A stretch of 64,000 bases of DNA from contig NC_088708.1 in assembly GCF_963576615.1 (NCBI RefSeq), forward strand, positions 64,892,672 through 64,956,671, given 5' to 3'. The position numbers were made by a program, and so were the translations under genes. Below the pieces are notes generated by a model that had not been told where the DNA came from, did not search any database, and was given only the letters and a program-made list of their open reading frames with translations. Shown here piece after piece: positions 15,256-54,700 of this stretch (position 1 is its first letter; each line of letters opens with the position of its first letter). The stretch is from Watersipora subatra (Eukaryota > Bryozoa > Gymnolaemata > Cheilostomatida > Watersiporidae).

Positions 15256-15774
15256 CTTATCCCACCTTTACACAGCTTATAGATTCAAACTTTACAACTT
15301 GCAACTCACAGCCTATTATTACTAACAGCAGATCTGCATGAGGGGAAATCTGAAAACACTTCAATTTTGACATCATTAAAACTAGATGCATTGACACAGA
15401 ATGGAAAATACATGGTTACTTTATTTGCATAAAACAGTCGTTATAAACTAACATTCTCTTCGTTAATCTTTCCATGTTTCCTACCTGACTTGACTGCTAC
15501 AATTGATCTATGCAATAGATATATGTACTTCTTTACTGTCATACATCAGTCTCTCCTTCTAACTGGATCCCTTCTGTCAGCCTTCAAGTGCTTATTCCCT
15601 CTATTTTCTTCCTTCAGAAAAGATGGTGCCATCTTTGCTCCGAGTAACACGACTGACATCAACTTGCTAAAAATAAATTGCTAAAAATATGTGTGAAGTT
15701 TTACTGAACATGAACTGCTTGTATAAACATGAATTGTATCTAATTATTATTAAGCCTACTAGTACCGGACAGCC
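15256..15774. other. intergenic sequence, nothing recognised
   Basis: AT-rich unique-looking sequence between the 21-bp array and a SINE-like copy. No exon, RNA gene or repeat is supported. Confidence 0.4.
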
Positions 15775-24715: not shown

Positions 24716-27700
24716 ATGTCTTCTGTTGATTTACTAAAAGTATCAAGTATTGTAGGGCTTATCATAGGAGGCCTCATTGGTCACTTCGCTACCAAGACTT
24801 CTACCGCTCCCACCTCATCTGTGAACAAGCCTGATCCTAGTCGATACCAATCTAATCGCAACTTCTTATTTGAGACAATCTCCGCAGATAATATAAAGGA
24901 GGTGAACAGGTAAACAATGTAGATGGGCCAAAATGCTTTATTTTCTGAACACGCCCATATCTGAAAGTTGGCATGTTTGTTACTCTGCTGGCCACAAGTT
25001 TACTACATTTGTTTGAGATCTATTAGTTCCATTTTAAGGCAGTTCTTTACTCACTGCTTTTAAGTAATAGTAATGAAGTAATACAAGATCTGAAGTATAT
25101 GATATTATTAAGACCGTTGCAATTACTGCCTACACTGTCATATATACATAGAGAGACATCATGAAATTGATTATAAAAAGCCGATTCGGTGAGGTACAGC
25201 CGACCAATCAACAAATATTACAACTTTACACTTTGACAAAATTGGTCTTTTAGGCGATTGATCACGGATCAATGGCCGAAAGGACAGATCTGATCGACAA
25301 GACAGATCTAATCAAAATGGATGTGATCATGGATAGTGTCTGATTAGCCTAAGGATCTATGGCAGTTCAAATAGCAAACGAATTATAGAACAGGCCCTGA
25401 TATTTAGGGCAAAGCCATTGAAATGCAAGACCCATCCAACTATTTGAACTACTAGATAGCTGGATAGTCGATTGACCACGAAGGTCCTTGATCAGCCTGG
25501 TTATCAGATGATTGGGAGGCGTGTCTCATGAGAATCCTTTGATTCCTGTCTATCTTCCACTTCATGCTTCTGCTAGCAAAAATAGCAATCAATCAACACT
25601 CCAGATTTGTAATGAGTATGCAGATTATACCGATAAGATAAACATGTGCATATGTTGGCATAGGGGGAGCTGGAGTCGTGATGAATAAATTATCCAGTCT
25701 TGTTAGCTGCTTCCAGATGACATTTCATTTTATCACAGCTGTTTGCATTCTTCGATATTCGCCACTTGTGGCATTCTACAATGCATGGAGACATGCAGAG
25801 CTATAAATACTAATTCTTAGCTAATAATTTTCCCTACAGCTAATTTTTCATCGAAAACCATATGTTACAAAGTACGTCCAACTTTGCAGCGATAATCATC
25901 CTCTGTATGTATAATCCAATAATACCAATATCTATACCCAATATATATATCGATATCTATATCCAATACCTATATCTAATACCTATATCCAAAATCTATA
26001 TCCAACATCTATATCCAACATCTACATGTATATCCAATACCTATATCCAATATACAGTCAAACATGGATAACTCGAACTTCAAGGGACCGAGCAAAAGTG
26101 TTCGAATTATCAGAGCGTTCAAGTTATCAGAGCACTGTCACAAGTCCATATATTTACTTATTTATTAGTAGATACATGTACATATACAAACTATAATATA
26201 AATCAAAAGCACAAATGGCTTGTTTCAAATTAAATGCTTCTAATGTAAAGTTTAAAACGTTTTTATGAAAAAGTATAGAGATTTTTCTATCACTTGAGAT
26301 TGGTTTGTTGTTTGAGGTGATGTAATTGCCAGGACGTTTTTCAGATTGACATTGGCAAAACTTGATCGTTGTTGAAATGCTCAAAAGAAAAGACATTTTT
26401 TTCTTTTGGGGTTTTACCCACGATCAATTTTGCCGTTTTTTCTTGAAGTTTATGCAAAGATTATCTTACTTTACCTGGGATTCGTTAAGAGCAACACTCC
26501 GAGGCAGTTCAATTAGAAGTTTTACGAGGTTTTACGTACATTCTATATCACTCACGTTTTTTTAATAAATACTTATTGAATGTACACACGTATTCTGTGT
26601 TTAGGTCAAACGATGAATAGTTTTTTGTAGCTCAGACAACGTTAAAGTTTAATTACAACAATTTTTAAGACGTTTTAAACATTCAACATTCCAATGTTGA
26701 TTCAACACGGAATCAACGTCGGAAAACTATTCATCACGGGCTAGCCGGGTCACGCACTCAAGGATTTTCGCCACGCACATACAAAACAAAAACAACATGC
26801 GATTTTTGTTTTGTATGTGCGTGGCGAAAATCCTTGCGCCCGTGACCCGGCTAGCCCGTGCTACTCATCGTATAGCAGTATAAATCAAATTTCACCAAAC
26901 CTTTAGAAAAGTCGTTGACAAAAATATTTTGCCGATGGTGGTAATAACGACGCTTATGAATTACGAAAAGATGAAGTTTACCTCTATGGCTTTGAATAAA
27001 GTGACTTTCTAAAGCGATAACAACCGTTTCGGTAGCCGTTGGGCAAAAAAACAGTTCAAATTAACAGTGTTGAGTTCGAGTTATCTATAGCAATTTATCA
27101 TTACGTGGGAACGGACCAAAGGAAATGTTCGAATTAACCATGTGTTCGAGCTATCCGTGGACGAGTTATCCATGTTTGACTGTATATATCCAATATCTAT
27201 ATCCAATATCTATATCCAATACCTATATCCAATACTTATATCCAGTACCTATATCTATATCCAGTACCTATATCCAATATCTAGGTTCAATATCTATATC
27301 CAAAATCTATATCCATTATCTATATCGAATACCTATATCCAACATCTATATATCCAGTACCTATATCCAATATATATATCCAATATCTATATCCAATATC
27401 TATATCCAATACCTATATCCATTACCTATATCCAGTACCTATATCTATATCCAGTACCTATATATCCAATATCTATATCTCATACCTATATCCAATATCT
27501 AGGTTCAATATCTATATCCAAAATCTATATCCATTATCTATATCCAATACCTATATCCAACATCTATATCCAGTACCTATATCCAATATATATATCCAAT
27601 ATCTATATCCAATATCTATATCCAATACCTATATCCAATACCTATATCCAGTACCTATATCTATATCCAGTACCTATATCCAATATCTATATCTCATACC

Positions 27701-30700
27701 TATATCCAATATCTAGGTTCAATATCTATATCCAAAATCTATATCCATTATCTATATCGAATACCTATATCCAACATCTATATATCCAGTACCTATATCC
27801 AATATATATATCCAATATCTATATCCAATATCTATATCCAATACCTATATCCATTACCTATATCCAGTACCTATATCTATATCCAGTACCTATATCCAAT
27901 ATCTATATCTCATACCTATATCCAATATCTAGGTTCAATATCTATATCCAAAATCTATATCCAAAACCTATATCCAATATCTATATCCAATATGCAACAA
28001 TCTGTCTGTATTGAAGATGATATGCAAAGGAGCACCCGCTCAGACATATCTGCCAAACTACTCATTAAGAAAATCATACTTGGTGTGTGAGTCACTCTTA
28101 AATTTTACGTGAGTCATAAAAATGGCATATCGATACTCTTAGTGTAAATATCGAGTGTTACGGGTTGATAGACCTCTAAGCTGTATGAACCTTAGCTAGA
28201 TTTCCTCACCATATTCGAGTAGGCTTATCTATGTGTATATATAGACCTATATATGTATATACTTATACATACTTTTACGTACCATAAAACTGCTAATTGA
28301 ATGCCACTTTTATTTGACTGCCACTATAGGAAAATAATTGAAAACAGAGCACCATGTGTACAAATATATAGGTTTTACAGTATATATGTTTTGACTGTTC
28401 GAAAGACTAGCCGTAACAGTTTCCACACAATCCCATAATTTTTGTGGTTAGATTGTTGAAAACACTTTCTTTCAAATGTGAGAGTTTTCACGAATATTAA
28501 GCCCAGTATTTTTGTGTATTTTTAGAGTTTTTTTATATTTCTGCGCTGAACAGATATTGCTATGGTCAAATCCCAAATTGCACAACAAGTTCTCATGTTT
28601 TATGCCACGTTTGATGGCAAAATTTGCATCTGATGTCTCCAAAGTGTCCTGAAAATAGAATTTCAATTTCGAGTTAAATGAGTAAGTTTGTATTGAGTTA
28701 CATGGTATTCTGGGCATAATTGTGAAATATTGAAATAACTAAAGCTGTTTAACAAAGTTAGGTGTTTCCTATTATGAATGATTTTACACATGTAACATTT
28801 ATAACTAAACATTCAATTTCTTTAGAAATAAGAGATTTTTCAGATTATGATGGTAGCAGATATTACTGTCAGCTGAATTGCCTCCGCAATACTTGTAGAA
28901 GTTTTGAAATAGGGTAATTTTGACAGTTTTAAACCTTATTTGCGCCATAGAGTAACCATTTTTCGCATGAGATTCAAAAGGATCAAATTTCGTTCCTCTC
29001 ATAATAAAGCATAGTAGTCATTATTCTTTTGATGTCTGTCAACCTTTTGAAATCCAGTTCTTTCAATAAAGATTTTGATTGAAGGTTAACATCTGGGTGT
29101 CAGCTAGTGGCCGGAAAATCAAAAGTATATCAGCATGCTTGCTGACACGTGACTAAAGCAATATAAAAAAACATGTTTTCCCCGTGGGGTGCAATGAGTA
29201 TTTTATTCCAGAATATTTCATTTAACAATAGAGAACTTTCTAGCAGCTGACCTTGACTGTCTCAGCTACTGGTCAGCCAGTCCTAGCATCAGAGCTCTGA
29301 CTTTATAACTACTGAGCTAGTTCAATGGATATTCAACTCTCTATGCCAACTGGGTTGCTGCTAATAACTGCTAACAAACCACTTTACCAGCATGAAATTT
29401 TCATTTAGTATGCTCTGTGCTTAGGTTTAGTAGAGGTTCAACAGGAATTTAAACTGAAACTCGTCGTTTACAAAATTGTACGAAACTAAGATCGCAACTT
29501 ATAAAGTTGGTACTTCTAGGAGACTTCTTCAACAGTCTATTTTAGTCAAATTGCAAGTATTAATAAAACTAAAACATTGAAAAAGTAAATTTAGAATTAA
29601 AACAATGTACAGCAGCAACATTCCTCTATTTTGCTTCTTACATAAACCATTTTGTTTTCAAACATTGGTGGAGTTCCCTCCCCCTAACAGGACCAAATTT
29701 TTCACCTACCAACCTATTTTATTGAGCAGGCGTTTACAGAAGTTGGAAACTGGTAAATGTTAATACTTATTTTAGGTCGTACGTGTCTCCTGCTTATCAC
29801 ATCTTCTTGAGTAAATATATTTAGAAGTAGGCCCATGTAACTGACACTATGCTAACTAATAGGTAAATAGGTCAATCAACACACGATGATCTCAGTGCAG
29901 TTTTTCAACACTTTTTAAGTGTGTATGAGGGGTAATATTAAGCCATTGTTGCTGGTATTTGAGCATGAAATTATAGCTCTTGTTATTGAGTAGTTCAGTA
30001 TGGGTACCAGATAGGATCAATGCTAATCCTGTTCGACTGCTTTCTTTCCTAACAACTGAAGTTTCATCACTCAGTTACTAACTCTTTCTCTACCGTAAGC
30101 TGATATATCGGCTTTTCAATATGGTTTCACTTTTCTTTTAATTACGAAACCTATACAATAGCTAGACCAATAAAATTTTGTCTCCATTGAAACAACCTTG
30201 TTGCCAATCACTTGCTATCAATAAAAAACCTTTGGCTTAACATTTCCAACAATTTGCGGTGATAAAAGTACCAACCGTAAAACGATATATCGGCTTATTA
30301 ATAGGGTTTCACTTTTCTTTTCATTACGAAGCCCACACATTAGCTAGACCAATCAAATATTGTCTCCAGTGAAACAACCCTGTTGCAAGTAAAGTGCTGC
30401 TAAAAGAAAATTTTTTGGTTCAACTATTCCATTTCTGATTATTTTTCAAAACGGCAAAACCAGATCGCTATCGTCATGGCAAGGAAAAACCTACGCGTTC
30501 GTTCAACGCAAATAAATTGTTGGAGATTGTACGAGAGTGAAATTCACTTTATACTTGTCTTGTAGAGAATTTTTGTTTTGGATAATATGCATTTTACAAT
30601 AAAACGATATCTGCTTTTATTCTCGAGATATTGCTTAAATACTAGCGCTATATTGGTTTTTCGAAAAGTTTGTTTTATTAATTCGGGCAGAATATTCATT

Positions 30701-33700: not shown

Positions 33701-36700
33701 GCATCAGATGATGCTTTAAATGATGTATATTACAGAGAATACAGCAGCAAGCCTCATCTGGCAGGAAGTGAGAGAAATAATGAGCTAGCTGATATGATTG
33801 AAACCAAGTGGAGAGATGAGTATAAGTTTAAGACAAAGCGAGATGTTTTTAATGTGCTGCTCTCGTACCCAGGAGGACCGGATGAAAGAAATCGGGTAGC
33901 TATTGAACCCATCCGACTCTCACATTGTTCTTCAACTCTTTTCCTACCAAATTAATTTTTTACCGGCATTTTTAAATATTTGATAAATCCGAAAATTTAT
34001 ATAAATTGTCGTAATTTTTGAACCCATGGTTTATAAAAGTTATTTTGTCACCAAAATAATCCAAATAATTCTAATAAGATTCAGCAGAATGATCTAAGAG
34101 ACTTCTTCAGTAATTTTCGCAGCAGGCTGTGAGCGTGCTGCGGATTCTAAATTTGAAGACATATTTTCCTTTTATATCTATATTTAACATTGGTGAATAA
34201 AAACTCACTGCAATCATTGATATGTTTGCAACAGTTTGCAGTCAAAACTAGGTTTTATGTGCAATAGAAGTGGAGTTATGAGCATCGATCCATTGTTAGC
34301 CGTGTTAAGATAGCCGCAGGGGTGCTATTAAATAACATGCTATAAATCTGCACATTTATAAGTTATATAATGATAATCTATCAAATGCTACAAATATATA
34401 CCCATGAACAGGTGACATAAACTAACCATACTTATATTACATGCAGAAACAAAAATTAACGTTTTTAAAGCAAAAATATTTATATCGTTTGCTCGGATAG
34501 CTACATTCTGATTATTGCTTTTAATGAAATGAACATGGTCTAGTTGACCAATATTTTCCACAATATTTTCTGGCCTCAACTCTTTTTCTGCACTGCTAAA
34601 CTAGTCGATATTAGCGTCCAAACAATCTTTTAGCAGAGCAAAACTTTTATGTGTTGCATTTAGCACAAATGCAACGCGTAAAAGTTTGCTCACTAGACGT
34701 AACCTTTGGCCCAAAGCTTGCAAACCGTTTTTATATGCATGCTCTTCGAAGTATTAAGAACGTGTTAAACAAGGAACTACTATTAGCCTGAGACTGTTAT
34801 TGATTATTTCTATGGTGTTGCTTTTAAAGTTTTAACAAGAAAAAGCGAAAAGCTTTGGAGTTAGACAATGAGAGAATTAATTGTTAATAATGTAAATGAT
34901 TTGTTATTAATACAATTTTGTAGACACTTTTCAACTGATCACTTGATATTATGGGTTGATAAAGATCAAAGATAGTCAGTGGCGGTCAAATGGAGGTGAC
35001 GTTCAAATAAAGGGCGGCTCTTTATTTTTCAACCCTTCTCTCAGAGTGGCGGCCAAGTAGAAGGGGCATTCAAATAGAGATGGTGTTCAATTAGATGTTT
35101 TACTGTAATTGTATTTTTTTATCTATATCTGTTGTCAGGATTGTGGAAATTATTTCCCTTGCAGGCTTTCATAATCAATGCAACAAACCAAGTAGAGATG
35201 GCCAGCCAGGAGGTGGAGAAAGAGCTGGTGCCCAATGCAGATGCAAGTGATGTTGTCCCTCCTTTCAATGGCTATGCTAAAGCTGCTGATGTCACGGTTA
35301 GTTTTTTTTGTTCTTGCAGAAGTTTGTACCTGTATGTGTTTAATGTACCCGTATGTGTTCAATGTACCTATATGGGTTTAATGTACCTGTAAGTGTTTAA
35401 TGTACCCGTATGTGTTCAATGTACCGGTATGTGTTTAATGTACCCGTATGTGTTTAATGTACCTGTATGTGTTTAATGTACCCGTATGTGTTCAATGTAC
35501 CGGTATGTGTTTAATGTACCCGTATGTGTTTAATGTACCTGTATGTGTTTATGTACCTGTATGTGTTTATGTACCAGTATGTATTTAATGTACCCGTATG
35601 TGTTCAATGTACCGGTATGTGTTTAATGTACCCGTATGTGTTTAATGTACCTGTATGTGTTTAATGTATCTGTATGTGTTTAATGTACCCGTATGTGTTT
35701 AATGTACCCGTATGTGTTCAATGTACCGGTATGTGTTTAATGTACCCGTATGTGTTTAATGTACCTGTATGTGTTTATGTACCTGTATGTGTTTATGTAC
35801 CAGTATGTATTTAATGTACCCGTATGTGTTCAATGTACCGGTATGTGTTTAATGTACCCGTATGTGTTTAATGTACCTGTATGTGTTTATGTACCTGTAT
35901 GTGTTTATGTACCAGTATGTATTTAATGTACCCATATGTGCTTAATGTACCCGTATTTGTTTAATGTACCCGTATGTGTTTAATGTACCCGTATGTGTTC
36001 AATGTACCGGTATGTGTTTAATGTACCCGTATGTGTTTAATGTACCTGTATGTGTTTAATGTATCTGTATGTGTTTAATGTACCCGTATGTGTTTAATGT
36101 ACCCGTATGTGTTCAATGTACCGGTATGTGTTTAATGTACCCGTATGTGTTTAATGTACCTGTATGTGTTTATGTACCTGTATGTGTTTATGTACCAGTA
36201 TGTATTTAATGTACCCATATGTGCTTAATGTACCTGTATGTGTTTAATATACCTGTATGTGTTTATGTACCTGTATGTGTTCAATGTACCCGCATGTGTT
36301 TAATGTACCTGTATGTGTTTAATGTACCCGTATGTGTTTAATGTACCTGTATGTGTTTAATGCACCTGTATGTGTTTAATGTACCTGTATGTGTTTAATG
36401 TACCCGTATGTGTTTAATGTACCCGTATGTGTTCAATGTACCTGTATGTGTTTAATGTACCCGTATGTGTTTAATGTACCTGTATGTGTGTAATGTACCT
36501 ATATGTGTTTAATGTACCTGTATGTGTTTAATGTACCTGTATGTGTTTAATGTACCTGTATTTGTTTAATGTACATGTATGTGTTTAATGTACCTGTATT
36601 TGTTTAATGTACCTGTATTTGTTTAATGTACCTGTATTTGTTTAATGTACCTGTATGTGTTCAATGTACCCGTATGTGTTTATTGTACCTGTATCTGTTT

Positions 36701-39700
36701 AAGGCACCATTTTTGTTAACAACTTTTCCAAATGTCGCTTTTTGGAAGGCTTTTGTGACTTGTATAAAAACGTTGAGGCCCAAAACATAAAATCTTACAA
36801 CAAAAGTATTCAGCGTATTTGATTGTGGTACTCATTAAATTTGTCTGTTGAATTGTGTACCGGTGCTGCAATTTTGTGAGGACTAGCTATTTTGTTATAT
36901 TTTTATCATTTTCTGTTAATCATTTTAGTTTAAATATTTTATTTTCTTAAAATTACTTTGCAATGCTCAAACAGCCAACACAACAATGCATGTATGTTAA
37001 CCGATTTTGTTTGCTCTGTGAAAGTCCTTAAAGAATAGAGAAAGCATAATAGTATTATGCTTTATTATTTATCTTGAGGTGTTGACGACTGATCTTATAA
37101 AAAAGAATCAAGGAGATTGACCCACCAGAAGCTGAGCTATAGCCAGCCAAACACAGGTCTACCTAATAACGAATTAAAGGAAAACCCCTTCGAAAATCCT
37201 GAGAATTGTGACGTATGAAATCGACTTAGTGGACATGTGCCGGAGTTGCGCACCCTCACCGCCATTACATATACTGATTGTTTTAGGCTACGAGATATGA
37301 CACGCTTCTCGCGATAGTAAAGAATTTAAAAACTAGCTCTGGTTTCTCAGGAGAACCAAGCAAATATTGTGTGGTAAAGGCAGTTGCCCACAACCCCTTG
37401 CCATGATTTTTCAAAACATAAGAGCAGATTTTGACTATTGTGCCTCAAATTTTAACTCGATCTTCACGGATATCCTCCGAAGATATTCTGTTCAACGAAT
37501 GGTGCGTGTATAGTCTATATTATACGATATCCATGATTTGCAGTTTGTTTAGAATAAGAAATGGGAATGTGAATTTTTGTTTATTCATATTTTTTCCAAC
37601 TTACACCCGTGGCTTTGGACGGATCGACAGACAGACGGACACAGCTCTTATTATAGTAAAGATTTGCATAAGATTGACATTGCGTCAACATCTTGCTGCA
37701 TATGAAAATCTAAAGTTGAAGTTCAATGAGCAAACCTACAATAATACATGCTTTAGAATGAAATAGGTTGCTGAGTTATGGTTTGAAGTAAATTCCCACC
37801 TAAAAAGAACAACATACTGCAATATATAAGACAAGACAGTTACGCTTGCTTCCGTGATAACATAGTATTGACAGCTCGCCAACTGCCGCTGATCAAACTG
37901 TTATGCATCACATTTTAGGCGCTCCTGCTCTTATGTATGTTTGACTACATGTAATCTATTTGTTTCATTTGACATATCCAAAACTTTCAAGTTACTAAGG
38001 CTAGCATTGGTTTGTAGAGAACTAAGGCATACTATGTAAACTACTGCCGGGCTGAAGATTTTGATCACATGGTCGAGAAGGGGCTCAACTTGACTGACGC
38101 CATTGTTATATGCAGATATGGCAAGATCTTCAGAGGAAACAAGGTAAATATATATTTTTAGCTGTTTTTTGGCATGTGATATTCCTATATTTAATGAACC
38201 ATCTTAATTGGTAGAGCACTTACAGAAGCCGCGTGCATGTTGAGGCTGTTTTGGTAACCAACCCACCTCAAGGGTAAAGAAATGAAGCTGTTATAAAATA
38301 TCTCACTTGTTGAGGGATTCCTTGTATACAGTAATACTTCAACTTACGAGTGCTCCAACGTACGAGAAACTTGAGATACGAGCCAGCTTTTAAGCAAGTT
38401 TTAGCACTAACATACGAGCCATGTTTGAGATACGAGCACGTGAGTCAGTTGCCAAGTATGCCGGAGGTGTTTTATGAGAACAGCATCACTCTGTATTTTT
38501 CAACTGCTCAGGTTATACTTTTGTACCGTGTTTTTTTTGCGATTTTCAGTGCATAATTATGTGAATTAAAAGTACTCTGCGTTGACCGAAAGTTTGCCAG
38601 TAAAATGAAAGATAATGCAAAAAAAAGCGAATAATAACAGTTGACATTAAACGGAAAATTATTGAAAATATGCAAAATGTGTATGCGTGATTGAGCTAGC
38701 TCAGTAATATGACAGAAATACATCCACAATTATCAAACCGAAGGATTATATTCAGGGCATTTAGTTCGCAAAAGGACTGGCCATAGTTTCTAAACGACGC
38801 AGCGATCTTCACGACCGCTGATGGAGAGACTGCTCAGGCATTGGATAAACAATTGGCCGGTGACAGCGTAACTGAAACGATGTTATATGAAAAGGCCGGC
38901 GCTATCTAGCAAAACTATAAAAATAGACATTCGGACAAGTTGGCTAATGGTCGCGCATTAACCTTTTGTGACGACACCTGCGTTCGTCTTAATCGCAACA
39001 TGTCGAAAGGGCGACAAAGGCAAACGTCTTTAGATAGGATCATCTTAAAACGACCGGCTAGTCGTGGAAGCGAAACAAAGGAAAAAATAGCTAACCAGCG
39101 AGAAACTTCAAACCACAAACGCCGAAGAAATTTTAATTACGTTAAGTTAAAAATGAAATATTGCTTTTAGGTTTGCATCTACGTTTGTCTTTTAAGACAT
39201 TGATAAAATCCAAATTTATCAAAGTCAACTGTTGTAATGAAGGATAACTTATATTTCCCTCTCTGGAAAATGCTAGCGTTAGCTGCTATTGTATGTATTT
39301 AATTTTACATTTTAATTAATCACATTTCCTGGCATTATTTTTTAATTGTTGCTTTTTGAAAGCATTTGGTAAATTAGGACAATAACCAACATGTTCTTTC
39401 GGTTACAATATCTTGTTTTGAGTGTTTGATTTGCATTTTTTAGAGTATGGAAACCAATCAATATATATTTAATGGTTTTATATATAAATAAATTGCACCA
39501 ACATGCGAGTAAATTAACATACGAGCTCGGTCTCGGAACGCATTAAGCTCGTAAGTCGAAGTATGAATGTATTAGCGTTTTATTCAACTATATCTATGGC
39601 GAGTATGTGTTGACAGTATTCATTTCATCGATAGGTTAAACTGGCTCAGCAGCTGGGTGCAGTAGCAGTGATTTTATATAATGACCCAGCAGAAAGTGTT

Positions 39701-42700
39701 TATGGGGTGAATGCCACTTATGAAGAGACATTCCCACACAGCTGGTTTTTGCCACCTTCCGGTGTAGAACGAGGTGGCACCAGCACAGCCAAGGGAGATC
39801 CTTTAACGGAGGGATACCCAGCTAAAGGTATACTTGCCTCTGCAGCGGAGTTGCTTGCTCTTTCTTCTCCGTCGCCTGTACCAGCTTACAGACTGCGTTT
39901 GCCTGTTACGCTACCGATTGCTTGCCCGCTGCAATGGCTCCTACTCTTTGACAGAGACTTTGGGGGTCTAGCGCAAGAAATAGACATACCACAAAAGAAA
40001 ATAGACAGAGATATGGAGAAAGAAACTCTTGGAATGAATAAAAAATGTCATAGTTTCAACCTATCCAAGTCTATTTTCTTTTTAGGTAAAATTTGCCCAA
40101 CAATACGGAGCAGTCGGGGTTTTAATCTACAATGATCCACAAGAAAGTGTCGATTTAGACAAAAAAACAGCTAACTATAATGACACATTTCCGAATTCCT
40201 GGTTTCTGCCACCGAGTGGTGTTGAGCGAGGCTCTGTTATGGAGTTCTCTGGTGATCCACTTACTGCTGGTTTCCCTTCCAAAGGTAATTCCAAGTTTTG
40301 TCTTGGGCAATAGATCTGGACTGTCTTTGAGCTTATGCAAGGCTTACCAGACAAAACTCCTTTACTGTCATAACCTTGATCTTTCAAACTCATGCACTGC
40401 TTGCTTGCAATGATTGGCATGTTTTGCTAAAGTGGCTTTCTGGCTGCATGATGTTCTTATTTTAGAAATATTCCAATGCAGGCATTTACATTTTGTTTAA
40501 CTATTTGTAGCACTTTTTCCCAAATTAAATCAAAATTTCAATTTATAATTAATACCCTGCAGGATGAAATTACTCGCGGAGCTAAATATTGCAAAAACTG
40601 TCTTTTCATGCATATTCGCGGGTGAACACCTTCGCGAATAAATTAATTCGTGAATGCAGCTATCTATAAAGTAAAACCTTCACCTGCGTATACCACGTGT
40701 CTAGGTTTCTATTTAGCTGAGAAATTTATGTGATCATGCTAAGCTATAAATTTCTGGCTGCATCCAGAAGTTTTCATAAATATTTATCGATTTGGAGGCC
40801 TTTGGTAAACCAACAACTTGTGGTAAGTTATGAGTTTTTTTCAAAACCATTCACTGAATTAATCAAATTAAAATTTACTTTGGTTCCTTGATAAAACACA
40901 ACATTTATTTTTTCCATCCCTACCGTTCCTCATCTTCACGAAAAACCAGCATAGTCTAACTCATCAAGTTCCGCTACTTGTTTCAGTGTGAGAGCCAATC
41001 ATCTGCACAGATAACTTGTGACAACCTTGTATAATTTTATAAAGAAGCGTGATGCATTGGTAATAGGCATAACTCAAAGCCCCAGCGATGATTTTTAAAG
41101 AGTTTTGAACATACATTTACAAACTCTGCCTCGTGGCTAGTTTTTAATTTGCTGCAGTAGTTATTCTCCCTTGTGTTGAAAATAAAATTAATTATTTGCA
41201 GATTTTAACAATTCACGGAATTGGTTACGCAAAATCGCGAATTATTAAATCCATCAAATAATTTAATCCGGTAGGGTAATACATGAAATACAGTAACATG
41301 TTTCTTTGTTAAAATGTTTCAGGAACTTTAATTTTGTTTTTATCAGCTTTTTTATCTGAACTTTTCATTTGTTAGCTATTCGTATAACGCTAAATGTTAG
41401 TACACTGTATAGGTCATTAGTAGCATTGATTATTTGTTTCATTACCAATATAGGTCATTAGTAGCATTTATTATTTGTTTCATTACCAATATAGGTCATT
41501 AGTAGCATTGATTATTTGTTTCATTACCTATATAGGTCATTAGTATCATTGATTATTTGTTTCATTACCAATATAGGTCATTACAAGTACCCGCAACTAA
41601 GAGCAATACCAATGTAGGCCATGGCGTACTCCAAAAACTTTTAATATTACCAAAATAGTTACTCATACCAATACTTGAAAAACTGTCAATATAGGTTATT
41701 GTTAGCGCAAGAACCATAAAAATACCAATATAGTTAATCACCACTACCAACCATTTTGAATAAACTCGATTTGGACCATTACTAATATCAAAAACGTTCA
41801 TCAGTATCAGAACAGGTCATTATGAATCCATTGTTTTTTTTACGTCATCCCCCTGTTTGCACATGCGCTCGTCCACGAAAAAGCCACCATCTTTGTAGAA
41901 AACGATCGTCATTCTCTTGATTAATAGTATTTTTCGGTGTTGTTTTGATACTAAAACAAACAATTTGCAAACAAAAGCATTGTTTGCAATAATTAATTGC
42001 AGAAGCTTCGTGTTTTTAACAATAAAAGTTGTCCATAAAGATGGCAGACAACAATAGAATGACGTCACAAAAAGCGAAGAATACAAACATTTTTTAGCAA
42101 TACTAATATAGAATTTGACAGGCCTATGGGCAAACACTTTGAATAACACTGATGTAGGTCATGACTAGCGCCAACAACTTTGAAGAACCAATGTAGGTCA
42201 TAGCTAGCGCTGACAGCATTGAGCTATATTGGCATTATTTATTTTTTCTAAATAAATAGTGCCAAGAGCCTTAAGTACATGTAGATGCTTGTGAAGATGC
42301 TTATGCATGAATTATAAATATAGTATAATGTCAGTGGTATAATATAATAGTGACGGTGTAAAATTGGCTTTACCATTGTTTTATTAGTTCTTATCTTGTT
42401 TATATTGTTCTATATTTTGCAAAAATTTGTAAGGCTGATTTTAAAAGCATAAAATGAGTCTTGTCATATTTTTATTTTGTTACAAACATTAAAATTATCA
42501 TCAAAAGTTTTGGTCTACTTCGGCCTTTGCAGAAACAATCGTTCAAAATTATTGTTTAAGTTCAAATGTTTTGACAATTTAATATTTGATTGTAGTATTT
42601 GCCAAAAGTAGATATGCGATTTTGTTTAATTCTTGACAGGGTAATCTTCAGTTTAAAAAAAATAATATATTGACTACTAAAATATTTTTACTACTTAGTG

Positions 42701-45700
42701 TTCAACCACAAATTTCTAGAAGCAGAGCAAATGGCATCCAAAGTTTTTGATGATATATTATTTACTAAATACAGATTATGCCATAAGAAAGTCTGTGGAG
42801 CAAGTGAGAGACGAGAAGCTCATTCCTAACATTCCAACCCAGCCTATCGGGTATTTCGACGCAAAGCACTTCTTTAAAGCTCTCGGTGGTGACGAGGTTG
42901 CTAATGACGATTGGAAGGGAAGACTTGATGGTATAACATACAGATACGGAGGGGAATTAAAAGACAACAAGTCAGTAGCAATTCTTACAAAAATACTTTC
43001 TAATTTTTTTGGTTAATCAGTAATAGAAATATTTATGACCCGCTTAATGCACACTCGCTCTGTCGTATATCAGTTAGAGAACCGACTAAGAGGTTATAGT
43101 TGTATTCGAAACCAGCGTTATCTAAAATGTAAAATCTTAAAATGCTTTTCTATTTTATTTTATTCAACAATCGTACCCATGTAGTCAAAGGTTAAAAGGT
43201 GTCTGATTGGTGCAGGGGTTTGAGTGTTGGTGTACCAAGCCAAGAGTTGAGAGTTCGAATCCTGTTGACAATAATATTTTTTCATAACACTTTTAGCGTT
43301 GTTTCGGAGAGAAAAATGGACGAACCAATGGGCATGGTTAATATTATAGTAAAAATTTTATACAGTACTCACATAACAATATTTTATTATTTGTTAAAGT
43401 TGCATGAAGGCTTGCATCAAACCTATCGTAAAAACTATTACAATAATTTGGTTAACTAGTCAAGAATGTCCCTATTGTTATTGCTGATGATTTATGCAGT
43501 TGTATCTGTGATGCAATGTGAGACAATATATGGTACCGTTCAAGTAGGTCAAATATATGGAACGAAAAATATTTTAGGAAATTTCGGATATTGAACAACA
43601 ACAAGGATGAGAGAAGAAATATTACCAACGTATTTGGAATAATTGAAGGTTCGGAGGAGCCAGGTAAAAGCCAATTTCAATGATCTCTCAAGTTAGATAC
43701 TAGTAAATGCTGTTACTTATAGTTCCATAGTGTTGGATTACTTATAGTTCCATAGTGTTGGAGTACTTATAGTTTCATAGTGTTGGAGTACTTATAGTTC
43801 CATAGTGTAGGAGTACTTATAGTTCCATAGTGTTGGAGTACTTATAGTTTCATAGTGTTGGAGTACTTATAGTTCCATAGTGTTGGAGTACTTATAGTTC
43901 CATAGTGTTGGAGTACTTATAGTTTCATAGTGTTGGAGTACTTATAGTTCCATAGTGTTGGAGTACTTATAGTTCCATAGTGTTGGAATACTTATAGTTC
44001 CATAGTGTTGGAGTACTTACAGTTCCATAGTGTTGGAGTACTTATAGTTCCATAGTGTTGGAGTACTTATAGTTCCATAGTGTTGGAGTACTTATAGTTC
44101 CATAGTGTTGGAGTACTTATAGTTCCATAGTGTTGGAGTACTTATAGTTCCATAGTGTTGGAGTACTTATAGTTTCATAGTGTTAGAATATTTATAGTTT
44201 CATAGTGTTGGAGTACTTACAGTTCCATAGTGTTGGAGTACTTATAGTTCTATAGTGTTGGAGTACTTATAGTTCCATAGTGTTGGAGTACTTATAGTTC
44301 CATAGTGATGGAGTACTTATAGTTCCATAGTGTTGGAGTACTTATAGTTCCATAGTGTTGGAATACTTATAGTTCCATAGTGTTAGAATATTTATAGTTT
44401 CATAGTGTTAGATTACTTATAGTTCCATAGTGTTGGATTACTTATAGTTTCTTAGTATTGGATTACTTATAGTTCCATAGTGTTGGAGTACTTATAGTTT
44501 CTTAGTGTTAGAATACTTATAGTTCCATAGTGTTGGAGTACTTATAGTTCCATAGTGTTGGAATACTTATAGGTCCATAGTGTTGGAGTACTTATAGTTC
44601 CATAGTGTTGGAGAACTTATAGTTCCATAGTGTTGGAGTACTTATAGTTCCATAGTGTTGGAGAACTTATAGTTCCATTGTGTTAGAGTACTTATAGTTT
44701 CATAGTGTTAGAATGTTTATAGTTTCATAGTGTTAGATTACTTATTGTTCCATAGTGTTGGATTACTTATAGTTTCTTAGTATTGGATTACTTATAGTTC
44801 CATAGTGTTGGAGTACTTATAGTTTCTTAGTGTTAGAATACTTATAGTTTCATAGTGTTGGAGTACTTATAGTTCCATAGTGTTGGAGTACTTATAGTTC
44901 CATAGTGTTGGAGTACTTATAGTTTCATAGTGTTAGAATATTTATAGTTTCATAGTGTTAGAATACTTATAGTTCCATAGTGTTGGAGTACTTATAGTTC
45001 CATAGTGTTGGAGTACTTATAATTCATAGTGTTGGAGTACTTATAGTTTCATAGTGTTGGAGTACTTATATTATATTGTCGTTATACTTGCTAAGAATGT
45101 TAAAGCTGGAGTAATCAGTACTTGACCGCATGCTTAAACAACCAACAAAAAATTACTTAATCTTGTTTAATGAGTTTATATAGTACTACAGTCCTACCTC
45201 AACATACAAACTTAATGCGTTGTAAGACAAACCTCATGTGTTAATTCTCTCATATCTCAAATCGAGTTTTCCTGTCTAATTTAATTAAATACAGACGATC
45301 CATTCTCACCCTCTGAAAAACCACCTAAAAACATGATATCACAATGGAAAACTTGTTTCTGGTTGGTCAAATTTGCCACCTGCACTCACAAAATAACAGA
45401 TGCCTTTGCAATGGTTATGGTCTGCAATAAAATGAAACATAATTGTGTGCATTAGTGTATAAAGTTCCTACTTTCAAGACATATGGTAGAGGGAGACGCT
45501 TGATGGCAACACGTTTAGTGCCCTACATTTATGTGGCGCTACATAACATATACTTTAAGTTTAACTTGAATGACTTTGGCGTATTATGCACACACTTAAA
45601 ATCAATTTTAATCCTACACTAAACTTAATTCTAATTGTGCTTTCGCGGTTTTTTTATTATGTTCTTCCGGCTTGCCTTTTTTCCTTGTTTTTAGACTCAT

Positions 45701-48700
45701 TTTCACGTTCAGTCAGTTTTCTGAAATCTCTTTTGATTTGACAAGAACAGTCGAGCGATGCTGTTCTCGTAAGCAGCGTTTCACATACTTGTATCTTAAA
45801 ATTGTCCCAAATCTCAAAGCAAAGATTTGCTCGGAAATTTCCCCGTATTTTGACATCTCTCGTATGTCGAAGTACGACTGTATACTAATTCTCAATCTTA
45901 TATAATCCATAATAATGACTTTACAGACCGATATGTAATCATGGGGAATCACAGAGATGCATGGATGAATGGAGCCGTAGATGCTACAAGTGGTACAGCA
46001 GTAATGATGGAGACAAGCCGTGTTTTCTCTAAGCTTATGAAAACTGGTAAGAAGTCACTGTATGACTGTATAATCACATGTGCTGCATGACAGATGGTCA
46101 CACCGCATGCAGGTTTGCTAAAATATGATATTATCTGTGAATATTCAGGGTGGAGACCAAGAAGAACCATCATATTTGCGAGCTGGGATGGAGAAGAGTA
46201 CGGTATCATTGGTTCAATAGAATGGTTAGACGTGAGTACGGTATCATTGGTTCAATAGAATGGTTAGACGTGAGTACGGTATCATTGGTTCAATAGAATG
46301 GTTAGGCGTGAGTACGGTATCATTGGTTCAATAGAATGGTTAGACGTGAGTGCGGTATCATTGGTTCAATAGAATGGTTAGACGTGAGTACGGTATCATT
46401 GGTTCAATAGAATGGTTAGACGTGAGTACGGTATCATTGGTTCAATAGAATGGTTAGATGTGAGTACGGTATCATTGGTTCAATAGAATGGTTAGACGTG
46501 AGTACGGTATCATTGGTTCAATAGAATGGTTAAACGTGAGTACGGTATCATTGGTTCAATAGAATGGTTAGACGTGAGTACGGTATCATTGGTTCAATAG
46601 AATGGTTAGACGTGAGTACGGTATCATTGGTTCAATAGAATGGTTAAACGTGAGTACGGTATTATTGGTTCAATAGAATGGTTAGGCGTGAGTACGGTAT
46701 CATTAATTTAATATACTGGTTAAATGTGAGTAAACAACCCCCCCCCTACATCAGTCGCTTCCAATAGTATGCTTCATACTATTTGTGGATTTCAAACTAA
46801 CAGAAAACTGTCAGAGCTTTTTTGCAGATATCGAGACATGACATATAAACATGATATAAATGGAAATGTTTGTTTTGGTTATACCTTTTTTCCTCGCTTG
46901 GCTAATGTGAGCTGTGACAGGCTTGTGCTAGAATTGTAAAGTGTCCAATATGAACCAGACCTAACTAACTATTCAATATATTGCTCCGGTTGTGGCCTTG
47001 CTCATCTGTGGGAACATCAAGTGAAGCCACTCTAGTTACTTCTAGCTACTTCACCCTAATCCTCTTCTCAGTTAGGTTTGTACAATGTTCTTGTTGTATC
47101 AGGCTATAGACTAGCTCTTCTGTTGCACAGATGTTTCTTACGATTTAAATATTTCATAAAATGGACTACAAAGTTGCCAAATTGAAATGCTAAATATAGA
47201 ATATCTTATTATTAGCAGTATTTGCTTAGCAAATTGTTGCAAGCCTTTGGTTTTATCATCAGCACCAAGAAAGTGAAGTTTTTTTGAAATTGAAATTTTT
47301 TTACAGAAGCTATCTATAAAGTACTTCCTGTAAGTTTGCTTTAAAAATAAGTGCTATACACTTAAGTAGTGTGGGAACCAATTCTTCAGTCTGTTGGAGC
47401 ACAGGCTAAAACATTCAAATTGTGCAGTTGTGTTATCTCTAGACATTTATACATGTATGCTTATCTTGCAGGAAGTGAAGGTACTGCTGGCAGCAAGAGC
47501 TGTTGTCTACCTCAACTGCGACAGCGGAGTGGTCTACAACCAGTATCTACTGGCTGGAGCATCTCCTCTCCTTCACAAACTTATGTATGACACGGCTAAA
47601 ATGGTATGTATTTCTTACTATAATTGGTCCATACGGATATTTGACATCAGCATTCGAGAATTATTTTCGAGTGAAATTGTCCTCAATTATTTTCTATTAT
47701 CTTTTAACATCACCCCTTTCCTTTTTATGTTCATAATGAGTTTAGTTTTGTTTATATAAAGTACCAAAAGAGATTTTTTGGTATTGAACCCTATTTTTTT
47801 ATTATTTGACCATTGATGCCTGAGAAGTTTTTACTCACAATGTCACATGTAATTTAATATTCACATGTCTTTCTGTTAGTAGTGCATATGGTGTTCTCGT
47901 ACTCACCTTTCCTATTTCAGTACCACATAAAAACACACACAAAACAATGCAAAGGTTTTAAACACCAGTAAATAGTTTTATAAAAGTGAGCCACCAAGGT
48001 TTTTCTATGTCCCAACTCTGCAAAGCTTTGTACCAGCCACCATCTATAATTCATCAGTGACTGACTATTTTTATATTTATTTACTGAGAACTTTTGCCGT
48101 CAGAAAGTTTTTAATGCATAGACAGACCACCAACAGTTGATGCAATTTAGAATTGTACAAAGTATTTTAGGTGTCTTTGCACATAGAATGCATAGTTTCT
48201 AGGTCAATGTAGGTTTGTTGGTCAATATGTATTTATAATATACGTATTGACCAACAAAATATGTGTTTATAATTTAACATTAACGAAATGACAATGACCA
48301 GTGCCACAGAGAGCGGTTAGGAAGAGTCTAACAGTCATTCAAAGGCTTCATAAGCTGCAGACTGATTTATAAGGTGTTCTAGCTGGTTTTTAAAGGAGTT
48401 GTCTCCTTCTGTTGAAGCATGACTCTTCATAGCAATGGTAGTGTCTAGGGACAACTATTTAGATGATCTTAATTCGATACACCTAAAGCGCATGCAGTAG
48501 AATCTTTATTATGTAGGTGTTACAGGTTTATTTTCATTATGATGTTACTGGGTATTGCACCAAACTTGCAGTCGACTATGTTTTTTCGTTACTAAATACA
48601 TTGAATAATGTATTTAAATATAAATATATTCAATATTTAAATTTGTTCAATATCAAATTACTGTACTTTTCTTGATTGCACCAAACTTGCAGTATGTTTA

Positions 48701-51700
48701 CTCAATATTAAACACATTAAATAATATATTTAATTATAAATGTATTCAATATTTAAATACATGCCATGTTAAATAAGTGCTGATTCGTATCGTGTTCCTG
48801 ATATGTTCAAGATTATTCGAGGTGCTGCCAGTTAATTAACATCCTATTTAAGCCAACTATCACTCTACCTATTTTAGCAGAGAAATAATAAACAGTACCT
48901 TACTAATAGTGTATTACTGAGTTCTAATGAAACCAAAAGCCAAACAGAAAAAACATTATTTCTATTGCGTATACTTCCTCTCTAGTTAGTAAGGTTCACA
49001 AATATTGGTATTCGGATGTCTATCGGCGTATACCTTCACCATTTTATCGTCGTGCAAGTGAGGAAAAACTAGAAGCGTATCAGACAACGATACAACCAAT
49101 GCATTTTGGGTAGTTAAATTAGCTTTAGTAGCATCAAAGTCGATATAGTAGAGGAAAATCGGTATGGGCAGACAACTTTACGTTAATCAAGAATAATTTC
49201 TTAACTCTTAGTCTCAATCTAAATTCTAAAACTTTTAAGTCATCGACAAGCGGGAATTCCTGTTGTTATAGTCATCGAGCTGATATCTATCCAACTAACT
49301 AAAAGTAATCAATTTTAGTGCTATTACACAGGCAGTTCCCTGCGCCGTGAGAAAGATCATCAGGTGTAATAAGTAGCAGCACAGTTATTCCATAATGTAG
49401 CGAGTTAGTTAAGTGGTGCATTTGAGGGTTGATAAGCTGAATATCTGAGTTCGATTCCTGTGCAGTGCTTTTCTTTTCCTAACCTCCAAATATAGTTTTG
49501 GACAGACGAACAGCCATGACTATTATTATAGTAAAGATACAGTTATTACCGTTTTTGCTGACTAAAGCTTTTGAATAACTCTGTTCAAGATGGCCTTATA
49601 GCCATCATGGGAACAAATGTTACTCGATACTAATATAATTATGGGTGGTCTGTAATTCTCCTTAGCTCTTGGGAATCTCATCGATAAGGAATTTGAGTCT
49701 ATTGTATGTCGCTGTCTATCAGTATGAGCTATATTAGTTTTGTTCTGGCAGCACTTTTAGTCTTCTATCTTAGTGGTCGCCTTCCTGTAGCACCAGCATA
49801 AACTCACAAATAACGAACAGATAAACTATTTTGTAAAAGCCAATCTGAGCAAAAAGAGTATATTATACAGTTGTTTATCTATTGATTTCTTTGTCTGTCG
49901 TAGTATAGGAATGCAGTGCTATGTGGTGAAGGGTCATGTTTTCTAGTTTACAAGGTTTTAAGTTATCAAAGCTTTCGGAAAGTTTGCAAAGAATAAAATT
50001 AACAATTTAATAATATGTCTGTTTTATTCATACCCTTCTATGATATAACCTGTTCGTTTTTGCTCTTGATTATTTTAAATTGTTATAAAAGCTTTTCAAA
50101 GTGATGTATTATTATATAAATAGTTATGTTGCCAATACTCTTCAAATTTGATAATTTTCAATTCAAGTACAAACCCGTATAATCTATGCCTAACTTTGCT
50201 GTCGGTAGCCAGATAGACTTTCGATGTACTGACAATAGCCTATTGCAGATACCAGTGCCAGGAGGCCAGAACCTCTATGAACAGTGGTACGATGCTACGG
50301 TTGATAAGGATGACCCGGATGCTAAACCCACGTATGCTCCTACGTTTCTTACCTCAATAATGACCTTCTTTAATAGGTAGCATGTCAGTATCGCTCACAT
50401 GCAACAAACTGGCACGCAGCAAACTGGCACGCAACAAACTGGCACGCGTGTTGATGCAGAAGCTTATCATAACTACTAAAAGTTCTTATGTTCTTTTTTA
50501 AACTTTTAAGTCAAGATTTCATTTTAGAAAAATATAGTTTTATAATTGCTTACTAGACTTATCTGTCCACAGCATTGGTGATCTTGGCTCAGGGAGTGAT
50601 CACACCGGTTTCTATCACAGACATGGAATTACAAGCATGGATGTAGTCTACTACTATGATAAGGTAGTCTTTAAGTCTATTCCCAACTACTTTAGAAATT
50701 AAACTTTGAACAAAGATTGGCTGCTAGCAAAGTTTGAGTTCTGTTGAATGTTTTACAGTTAAACTCCTTAGTAATACGTTTTCCCACTTTTTTACATAGG
50801 AATTGATTGGCTAGTTAGTAAAACAAAACAATTTATGGGTCAGTAGCACAACGATGTACCCTGAATGTTGGCTAATGTTTGGTGCGCTTCTGAAGATTTA
50901 GGTAACTTTCAGTGCTGCCGACTAAAAGATTCTTTTACATTTGCTTAATTTATTAAGAGCTAAATATAAAAATGATATTAAAAACTGAACTATTTGATGA
51001 TTCAGATGTTCTGCTACTAAATTCGCAGCTTTTCCTTGTTTGACTTGAAAACTGCTATTAACAGCAAAATAACTCTGATAATTCTGACAGCAGTTTTTTT
51101 ATATTTATTGGCATTTTCAAGCTACAAGGGTAAACACATTTGTGTGACCTTTTATATTATCGCTATCAACTGCTGTTCTACTCCAGGGAACTGTTGAGTT
51201 ACGTTTGAATGTTTTTGATGAATTACAGAAAAAGCTCAAAATTGGATCTTACTACCCCCTCTATCACACCTCATATGACACATTCCAAGCTATTGAACTT
51301 TATGACCCGCAGTTCCTCTATCACAAGGCATTAGCCTCTTTTTTTACCGAGATGATAAGAAGCCTTTCCGACTCTGTTATGATTCCGTTTGTCGTCAGCG
51401 ACTATGCTGTGAGGTTGAGGCAAGTTTACGACGCAATGAACGCTGGTGTGAGAGTTGAACTGGATAAGAAAAATGCTACTTTATCCAAGTCACTCGGTGA
51501 GTTTTGAATATAGTGATTAGCTTGTGCAGATAACGTGGGAAGTCGTCTACTCATAACAACTGTAAATTGACTAATTCGTTTACTGAGCCGAAGTGTATAT
51601 TGCCTGGAGCTGGCTATAAATAAGTGCAGGTAGGTAGGTAGTTAAGCCTGTGTTCTACATCAATGAACTAAACTTACAGGTGCTAAGGCTTAATTGCCTA

Positions 51701-54700
51701 GTTTTTTTCAGAAATTGGCATTTACAAACTTGGTTTTTGAAATGAAGTTCTTGCCTTTTGTTAATTAATATTGTCTAATATCATGTATTTTACATATAGA
51801 AGGAGTTGTAGGCAAGTGTAGTAGGATATTTTTTAAACAGATAGGTAAATTTTTTTATTTATATGTTAATTATAACAAAATAAAAATTACACTAAAAATG
51901 AGCACACACTGATTACCGCCTTGAACATGTAGGAATAGGTAATTTTATTCCGAAGAGATATGCAAAAAAGATAAACTTGAAAAATAACTAGTTTATCAGA
52001 TTTGATGTCTATATACATAGCAGCTGTGGCTCTAGCGCACTGAGACCTTGGCATCCACTTTGAAAGACAACAGGATGTAGTCATTGAAAAACAAAATAGC
52101 TCAAAACATTCACTCAAAAATGCTCAAAACAGTTGCATCAATCTGTATGCTCTGTTACAAAACGCACCTTATAATTTCACGAGAGATGTCCTGTTTGTCA
52201 ACAGGCTTTCTTTTGCCAATGAAATACAGTTGAGATGCTGTCTGGGGCAGACATACAAATCAAAAAACTTTTCTGTATTTTTCATTTTTGCAAAAGCCCT
52301 CAGTGTGGCTGTTTGTCACTTTTGCTCCAACAGCCACACTTACAAATAGTCAGCCTTACAACATGCTGTTTTTAATCAGCGGCAAAAAGCGTTGTTTTTG
52401 GTTCAAAGTGGCGTCATAGAGGAATTCTAAATTCAAGAGAATCTGTTTTAATTAATACCTCAAATGAGCATGAATTCATATCAAGTAGGTCGGGTAAAGC
52501 TTGTTGGACTAGCATAAAACTGGCAGGTGGAATATATAGAAACATATTTTTTCGTAAACATAAATACAACTGAGGGTTTGACTTGTCAAAGGTGAACAAC
52601 TTGTCGTTGTTCCTGAACTGGTGTCGAAGTATCAAGTAGAAATACATGTCTGTTTCGCATTGCGGGATGCACTTGTAAACATAAATATTATAAAAAGGGG
52701 ATTGAATTGACTACAATGGTAATTATCTCTCCCCGACTATTCTTGTCACATAAATATTGTAGTGTGTATCTATGAGCTAAGTTACATTTACTAGTAACAA
52801 AATAATATATTATGTGAAAAATTTCTGGGTTTTAAACTGTTAAAAAGACAAGTAGTCCACCGACATATTCTAATGTTTTGTGATGTCACCAAGGGTTTCC
52901 TGCATCTAGCTTATTTTTAAGTTGATATAGAAAATCAGAGCTAACTATAGCAAGCAAGATAATCCCACACCTTCCATTGACCGCTAATAACTAAAATCTA
53001 TAACCTTATTTTGTATATGAATTTGTATGCACTCTGCGGTTTAGCCTGCTTGAATAAAAAATAATTTGGTTGTACTGCCTGGTTCACATACAATTCACAA
53101 AACGCTACAAGAGACATGAAAGTGATACATGAAGTTCATTGTGGGTCGTAAAGTGTAGAAGGGAGACGAGACTTGACGAGAATGGAGACGTGAGACGAGA
53201 ATGGCTTACAAAGTAACAAGTCTTATTTTTTCTGAAAAATGAAATCATAAAAGCAGCATGTTTTTAGGTGCTCTGAAATTGTTCTTCCACAATCTATGTG
53301 GCTAGTTAAGATATGTAATTGCTTTAAAAACCTGTTGGTACAGCCTACTTGACGCTAAACTATGGAATCCATGCAAAGCAGGCTTAATTAGAACCATTTC
53401 TGTTTGAGTTCTGAAACAATTTTCAATTATAGTGCTCTCTACATCAGTATGATAGTTTAAATCTGGAAAGGTGGGAAATCTTATACGTTTGAAGTGCAGA
53501 AATGCTTTGCGCATACTGCATGCGTATAATTGATGCTCAACCAATTGTGAATATTGGAGTTGCCTACTAGTGGTCAGGCAACTCCATTGAGTGGTTTATG
53601 TACGCTAGTACAGATATCTACTAAAGAGTGCTTGACATTTGACTTAAAATTTATATACCAAAAGCAAAACATTTTACAGAATGTAATGCATACATTTAAT
53701 GCTACAACACTAGTCCTTGACATAACACACTGGGAAAGCACTTTTCAGGGTGGTACTCGGGCTTTTCTTTCTTTCGTTATCGTTAGATGTGCATGCCAGA
53801 GCTTTTTTTCTATTATATATTTAAAGCAATTCCAATTACATCATGTTGGTAAAATTTGTGCAAAAATGAATACATTAATGACTGATTATCATATATTCTA
53901 GGGATAGTCTTGCCTGACTTTGATCTCTTCAGTCCTAAAAAATGTTTAAATAACCTGTCAGCGTTTACTTGTTCAGATCACCTGTCACAAGCAATAACCA
54001 AGTTCAGCTCCAGAGCCAGTGAGTTTGACGAGAAGGTTTCCAGCATACTCAGCGGAGACCCGAGGTGAGGTGACAGCCATGCTTTCTATTTATTACATGA
54101 ATGTCTGACGTTTTTATAGTGGGCGAAGCTTATGTTAGTCTGCAGCCATTGCTAGACGAGCTCAGTATCACTAGTAACACATACACCATTATGATCAGCC
54201 GTGCTTGAGATACTGTATTTACTAGGAGCAAATAGAGGGGTAGGCCAGCCATTCGTGGTAATTTTCCTCATTGCTGTGGTCATGAGGTCATTCTATAAAT
54301 AGCAATGTTGAGAGTCTTATCTATTGGCCACCCTGGGTGTTTTATTGGCCACCCTGGAGTTATGAGATAGCCGCTGCAGTATCCATTTGACTGACACACT
54401 TTATGTCCTACCTGATTAGTTTATAACAATAACTAGTACGCCGATTATTTTGAGAGATAAGTGGAAGCGTAAAATGTTCCTGCTCTAGTCCTCAGAATCA
54501 CAGCAAAATATTTACATTGTGTAGAATTATTCTCATCTGTTATATAACACACCTCAGGTTTCAGCTAAGTGACTTCATCTTTGTATTAAAGACGTACATT
54601 TAATGCACCCTTATAAAAGTTTGCAATATTAGCTTCTGTTATGCTGCAGAGCTGTGTAAGTTGAAGTCATGTCATGTTTGGATAGCCTTTGGCCCATCAG

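Follow-up and report, generated by a model that had tools for sequence, protein, structure and literature searches.

Tandemly duplicated exons which are used in a mutually exclusive manner are well known, among others from a human set (PMC9741552; see also PMC9013439), and hairpins in the vicinity of splice acceptors have been described as well (PMC5224494, PMC9198270). We analyze a pair of adjacent homologous exons, A and B, in a gene of the bryozoan Watersipora subatra which codes for a peptidase of the M28B family, to which human GCPII (FOLH1) belongs. The gene lies in a stretch of 64,000 nucleotides (nt) of contig NC_088708.1 (assembly GCF_963576615.1), which we call the window, and all coordinates refer to this whole stretch with position 1 being its first letter. 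We consider it probable that A and B are mutually exclusive alternatives which are both used. If so, this single gene would probably give rise to two enzymes with differences next to the substrate pocket.

Splice forms of other kinds are named for the Caenorhabditis elegans protein GCP2 (PMC10794815). The accessible part of a paper on trematode orthologues mentions splice variants for mammals only, and states that no substrate was found for these orthologues (PMC9768917). Among the papers listed by our searches, which covered the open-access literature, we saw no report of a mutually exclusive exon pair in M28B peptidases. This agrees with the original prediction for this locus, according to which the arrangement is not known to have been described for the family.

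Reading frame, constraint and relatives of the exon pair

The gene was modelled on the plus strand from matches to human FOLH1 and from the splice borders. It extends from 24716 to 57373 and, counting a probable first exon, each form with either A or B has 17 coding exons. Exon A (39635-39827) and exon B (40086-40284) both code for the same segment of the protease-associated (PA) or apical domain and are separated by an intron at 39828-40085. The predicted lengths of 193 and 199 nt and the spacing of 258 nt are correct, and coordinates, AG/GT borders and translations were all verified. Both exons begin in phase 0 and end in phase 1. The single exon e3 preceding the pair (38027-38143) contains the equivalents of Phe209 and Arg210 and ends with FRGNK in phase 0, and the single exon e5 following it (42775-42970) starts in phase 1, exactly as had been predicted.

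When the message is read from position 33736 to the stop codon, it is open for 676 codons with A only and for 678 codons with B only, without any internal stop. In contrast, inclusion of both exons shifts the frame, as the original prediction stated, and yields 41 in-frame stops, the first of which is codon 217. Omission of both yields 35 in-frame stops beginning with codon 140. Both early stops lie ahead of the Peptidase_M28 domain, whose Pfam match begins at residue 283. Thus, the reading frame permits exactly one of the two exons.

A and B are indeed homologous versions of one segment, with 41 of 64 aligned residues identical and with each exon matching the same segment of human GCPII; exon B alone matches human NAALADL1 (E = 4e-15), so that the resemblance exceeds what chance would give. 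A recent origin of the pair is ruled out by the saturated synonymous sites. The proportion of synonymous differences (pS) amounts to 0.82, and 16 of the 22 shared fourfold sites differ. The proportion of nonsynonymous differences (pN) is 0.29, which results in a pN/pS of 0.35 (bootstrap 0.25-0.48), and the differences at codon positions 1, 2 and 3 number 20, 17 and 44, respectively. The intron flanks of A and B are not clearly similar, as the alignment score was reached in 271 of 300 shuffles upstream and in 41 of 300 downstream. Synonymous sites that are saturated together with intron flanks lacking clear similarity argue that selection has preserved the similarity of the coding sequences. 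When neutral drift of a copy by 0.35-1.0 substitutions per site was simulated in 4000 runs, the copy stayed stop-free in about 2-10% of the runs and kept 16-47% of its residues (about 5% of runs and about 35% of residues at 0.5 substitutions per site). A and B each retain 16 of the 18 columns which are invariant across human NAALADL1, GCPII and GCPIII and the two paralogues of W. subatra on contigs C6 and C7 (see below). Judged by these comparisons exons A and B are both coding and under selection, and this is the strongest support from sequence alone for the use of both.

The identity of the gene product as an M28B peptidase was likewise borne out. In both forms all three domains, PA, Peptidase_M28 and TFR_dimer, score above the Pfam cut-offs, and the di-zinc ligands and the catalytic Glu are kept at six of six positions (His377, Asp387, Glu424, Glu425, Asp453 and His553). 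Among relatives of known structure human GCPIII is the best match of the B form (E = 1e-145), and GCPII and NAALADL1 come next. The B form and FOLH1 are 40% identical. Arg463, Arg534 and Arg536 of the S1 arginine patch and Lys699 are replaced by L, D, V and S, respectively. Together with Asn257 (see below) these residues mark GCPII proper with its preference for substrates that contain glutamate. As they are not conserved, a role as N-acetylaspartylglutamate peptidase is not expected. The product appears to be a membrane-anchored peptidase of the GCPII/NAALADL type, which should be active with a specificity other than that of GCPII.

The segment encoded by the pair is equivalent to residues 214-275 of human FOLH1. 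It covers the position of Asn257, which is listed among the S1' residues (PMC9976286), in line with the contribution to the substrate pocket that had been proposed for this segment of human FOLH1. Exon A has Gly at this position and exon B has Ser. Ser is also present in the C. elegans orthologues (PMC10794815), in human NAALADL1 and in the C6 paralogue, and the C7 gene has Thr. Among A, B, C6, C7, NAALADL1, GCPII and GCPIII the Gly is a change in A alone; it thus seems special to A, within this small sample, and the rest of exon A is constrained. The differences between A and B are concentrated in two places, the loop preceding the FP.SW motif and the six residues that follow GVERG. The sequons, read by eye, are NAT in A, NDT in B and both NAT and NET in the C6 exon. 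The single exon of C6 thus combines two potential glycosylation sites, and A and B each go without one. The exon choice could tune substrate specificity.

We searched the assembly of 783.7 Mb with A and with B, the hit counts being lower bounds, and both queries led to the same four places, that is, A, B, one place on contig C6 and one on contig C7. A third copy was found neither in the window nor among the genome places scored. The C6 paralogue (42618000-42677999; loci L011, L010, L005, L006, L012 and L013) is apparently intact with exons n1 to e16 all present in order (52-89% identical) and one copy of the alternative exon. Splice sites were worked out for this exon equivalent only; its borders and phases are equal, and it is 77% identical to A and 66% to B. 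A protein search for a second, B-like copy in the two introns flanking the C6 exon gave no B match better than E = 1.8. The more distant M28B gene on C7 (45%; around position 41250498, loci L007 and L008) has one copy of the exon within the 18 kb examined. A tandem duplication of the gene or of a gene fragment was also considered and rejected, as those of the other exons n1 to e16 that matched gave one good match each. Exceptions in this matching are the tail of e8, which recurs in a 38-bp array, and weak chance matches elsewhere.

Compared to the C6 exon, the nonsynonymous divergence (dN) is 0.22 for A and 0.32 for B, and it is 0.20 for seven other exons of the two genes. A tree of the segment places A next to the C6 exon with a bootstrap of 85, and B lies outside. 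A grouping of A with B is not firmly rejected, the p values of the approximately unbiased test being 0.051 and 0.18 for two such trees among seven tried. Of the columns shared with NAALADL1 by one exon only, three belong to A and six to B; with GCPII A shares 31 of 59 residues and B 27 of 59. The segment data do not show clearly which of the two exons is derived. The duplication of the exon probably predates the duplication leading to the C6 gene, which then probably lost B.

Splice signals and a predicted hairpin at the acceptor of exon B

Splice sites were scored with a small matrix which was built on other splice sites of the same gene (15 acceptors and 14 donors). The signals of exon B are strong, with the acceptor at the 98.7th percentile of 3698 AGs and the donor at the 98.6th percentile of 4008 GTs. 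Exon A has a good donor (93.6th percentile of the same GTs) and a weak acceptor (58th percentile of the same AGs; score -0.32). Weak acceptors also serve the single exons e3 (score 0.14) and e11 (score -3.92).

The acceptor of exon B was recognized in a search for repeats as one arm of a hairpin in the intron, on the plus strand. The left arm (39987-40006) is composed of UACC at 39987-39990 and AAAAGAAAAUAGAC at 39993-40006, and the right arm (40069-40088) extends from the polypyrimidine tract through the G of the acceptor AG into the first three nucleotides of exon B. The main stem is predicted to form 14 Watson-Crick pairs between 39993-40006 and 40069-40082 over the polypyrimidine tract, and four further pairs between 39987-39990 and 40085-40088 would reach across the exon border, from the G of the AG to the third base of B. 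In a context of 650 nt comprising A, the intron and B, the 14 stem pairs have predicted probabilities of 0.91-1.0. Folded alone, 39980-40095 reaches -28 kcal/mol with a z score of -4.5, and none of 200 shuffles was equally stable. When the upstream part of the intron was shuffled 2000 times, a stem of 14 bp was never reached, the maximum being 11 pairs. Among the 17 acceptors of the gene only that of B has a z score below -2 (-4.05 in this comparison).

Several observations weigh against a role of this hairpin. It was picked out by inspection from the 20 inverted repeats that 38144-42774 contains. A z score of -4 is reached by 4 of 500 random windows, and a stem of at least 14 pairs occurs at 3 of the 754 AGs in the window that follow pyrimidine-rich stretches, B being assumed among them. 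The larger stretch 39800-40110 has a z score of only -1.35, and 7 of 100 shuffles were as stable. When pairing is averaged over folding windows, in many of which the left arm is missing, B does not stand out: 36 of 120 random AGs reach its closure, and the acceptors of A, e13, e14 and e16 are more closed. When the windows include the left arm, the closure of B is reached by 12 of 300 random AGs and approached by the acceptors of e14 and e16, and by that of e5 in the longest windows. By the shuffles and z scores of the isolated hairpin the stem is stable beyond chance; the larger stretch and the accessibility measures are less clear. It is quite possible, if not what we favor, that the exons are mutually exclusive, that the hairpin over B is incidental and that trans-acting factors alone choose between the exons. 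U-rich tracts pair readily with AT-rich introns, and the recurrence of long stems and the accessibility measures that fail to single out B would be in line with such an incidental fold. Against it stand the 2000 shuffles, the z score of the isolated hairpin and the fact that B alone stands out by z score among the acceptors. In our view the predicted hairpin is real; that it takes part in the exon choice is likely but unproven.

Other modes of exclusion were considered. Steric exclusion, which would place a distant branch point within about 50 nt of the upstream donor, fits poorly, as the AG-free zone before B comprises only 14 nt of the 258-nt intron; with an AG 14 nt before the acceptor AG of B a distant branch point of the OGDH type (PMC7969005) is unlikely. 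An incompatibility of U2 and U12 splice sites was rejected: the donors are AAG/GTATAC and AAG/GTAATT, the acceptors are AG, and no U12 donor consensus was seen by eye. Among the 20 inverted repeats mentioned above we found no convincing dock for long-range pairing. One of them joins 38153-38170, at the beginning of the intron that precedes A, to 40162-40179 within the coding sequence of exon B.

The intron upstream of A contains a transposon at 38326-39572, which looks pogo/Tigger-like. Its 25-nt terminal inverted repeats (38326-38350 and 39548-39572) are 88% complementary, and it ends about 60 nt upstream of A. Read in the frame of exon A, the intron that separates A and B is free of stop codons. 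Its retention would therefore add a long tail which ends in exon B out of frame. A stop-free intron of this kind is matched by 14 of 5000 shuffles and by 18 of 723 reading frames taken from real non-coding windows with a similar GC content.

Proposed mechanism and alternatives

We suggest that the exon for the PA domain segment was duplicated long ago and that the copies now serve as mutually exclusive alternatives. The reading frame would enforce the exclusion, as messages with both exons or with neither run into an early stop and are probably destroyed by nonsense-mediated decay. Since both kinds of failed choice shift the frame, they would be removed. The choice itself is probably a competition between the weak but open acceptor of A and the strong acceptor of B which is folded into the hairpin. 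With the hairpin standing, A would be used, and a protein or a helicase that opens the hairpin would lead to the use of B. The resulting enzymes would have either Gly or Ser at an S1' position, they would differ in a loop of the surface, and one potential N-glycosylation site would be placed differently.

It could be argued that only one exon is in normal use and that the other is a decaying duplicate or used in traces. The weak acceptor of A with the transposon end close upstream, the largely paired acceptor of B and the single copy in the C6 paralogue would all fit such a history. However, frames, phases and splice dinucleotides are intact in both exons despite synonymous saturation, a neutral copy would seldom have stayed free of stops and would have kept at most about half of its residues in the simulation, both copies hold nearly all invariant columns, and weak acceptors are found on single exons of this gene as well. 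We therefore regard this explanation as improbable. The pair could also act mainly in the control of expression level through decay-prone messages with both or no exon, the difference in the protein being secondary. Both unproductive patterns do give early stops, and each acceptor is hampered in a different way. A poison exon, however, need not conserve its protein, yet A and B do, and the C6 gene has only one copy. Such a level control as the main purpose is very improbable.

Granted that A and B are alternatives, the segment might alter a surface with which the apical domain binds a partner or cargo, and leave the choice of substrate as it is. Most differences indeed lie in the loop before FP.SW and after GVERG, the sequons differ as well, and NAALAD2 of the razor clam has been proposed as a substitute for the transferrin receptor (PMC12896564). 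One of the differences, however, is at the Asn257 position in the S1' pocket, and we deem a pure effect on binding somewhat unlikely. In its most far-reaching form our proposal would be that one gene gives rise to two peptidases which differ in the S1' pocket and in glycan positions, that the 14-bp stem over the B acceptor is the switch so that RNA unwinding by temperature, a helicase or a bound protein sets the specificity, and that the pair predates the C6 duplication, with C6 having kept the A type only. All of this together is speculative and unlikely to hold in full.

Other features of the locus and comparison with known systems

The probable first coding exon (24716-24909) contains a start codon and a stretch resembling a membrane anchor. 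Its open reading frame matches the C6 paralogue (E = 6e-4), and its donor CAG/GTAAAC joins exon n1 (33736-33895) in frame. Exon n2 (35165-35296) lies in front of e3, and e5 is followed by e6 (43578-43663). Exons e7 (45927-46046) and e8 (46149-46231) code for two motifs, one of them WDGEEYG, which hold the equivalents of His377, Asp387, Glu424 and Glu425, and the equivalents of Asp453 and His553 are included in e9 to e12 (47472-47603, 50249-50331, 50573-50663 and 51229-51496). The TFR_dimer domain is encoded by e13 to e16 (53977-54064, 54792-54884, 56239-56356 and 57302-57373), and the stop codon is located at 57371-57373. All of these exons are on the plus strand.

At 46196-46732 there is a tandem array of 14.1 copies of a 38-bp unit (95% matches), which consists of the last bases of e8 and the splice donor. 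As the unit carries the donor, 14 GTGAGT donors stand in a row, and 38 is not a multiple of three. In the 80 bases read at the end of the e8 equivalent the C6 paralogue has no such array. Long minisatellites with units of 13-32 bases are frequent in introns and intergenic DNA of the window (35325-36702, 43714-45070, 10866-11375, 7421-7910, 14784-15260 and 27185-27993). A dispersed repeat occurs twice, in the intron after exon B (40549-41278) and near the end of the gene (55402-56038), and the two copies align in three pieces with 81-86% identity.

If both forms are made, the PA segment that lines the pocket of a GCPII-type enzyme would come in two natural versions from one gene, and a natural pair which differs at the Asn257 position would allow the role of this segment to be tested. 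The masked acceptor would furthermore be a simple and testable switch for mutually exclusive splicing.

With human GCPII, GCPIII (NAALAD2) and NAALADL1 the protein has in common the PA, M28 and dimerisation domains, the metal ligands and the catalytic Glu. It differs in lacking the arginine patch, in having Ser for Lys699 and Gly or Ser for Asn257, and in the alternative exon pair. The pair itself resembles exons 4a/4b of OGDH (PMC7969005), 3/Ab of U2AF1 (PMC5224494), exon 5 of SNAP25 (PMC2581893) and the set of PMC9741552, which are likewise adjacent homologous exons with old divergence and constraint. With OGDH it further shares a combined length of both exons that is not a multiple of three (PMC7969005). 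In contrast to these systems, the pair described here belongs to an M28B peptidase, shows no sign of a distant branch point, and its use is predicted from sequence. In insect Dscam RNA pairing through docking sites and selectors also accompanies mutually exclusive exons (PMC6071210, PMC7404189), whereas here we see one local hairpin on one acceptor, and no competing pairs that would tie both exons to a shared dock were recognized among the 20 inverted repeats in 38144-42774. Hairpins which lie close to a branch point or acceptor and influence the choice of exons are described for exon 6B of beta-tropomyosin (PMC9198270) and for GH1 and exon Ab of U2AF1 (PMC5224494), and they share with the present case a local stem-loop beside the acceptor of an alternative exon. 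The stem in the M28B gene differs from these in being a prediction, in covering the polypyrimidine tract and in reaching into exon B. Tandem mutually exclusive exons are thus a known kind of system, of which the M28B pair is a new instance, and the hairpin at the acceptor of exon B is newly noticed here.

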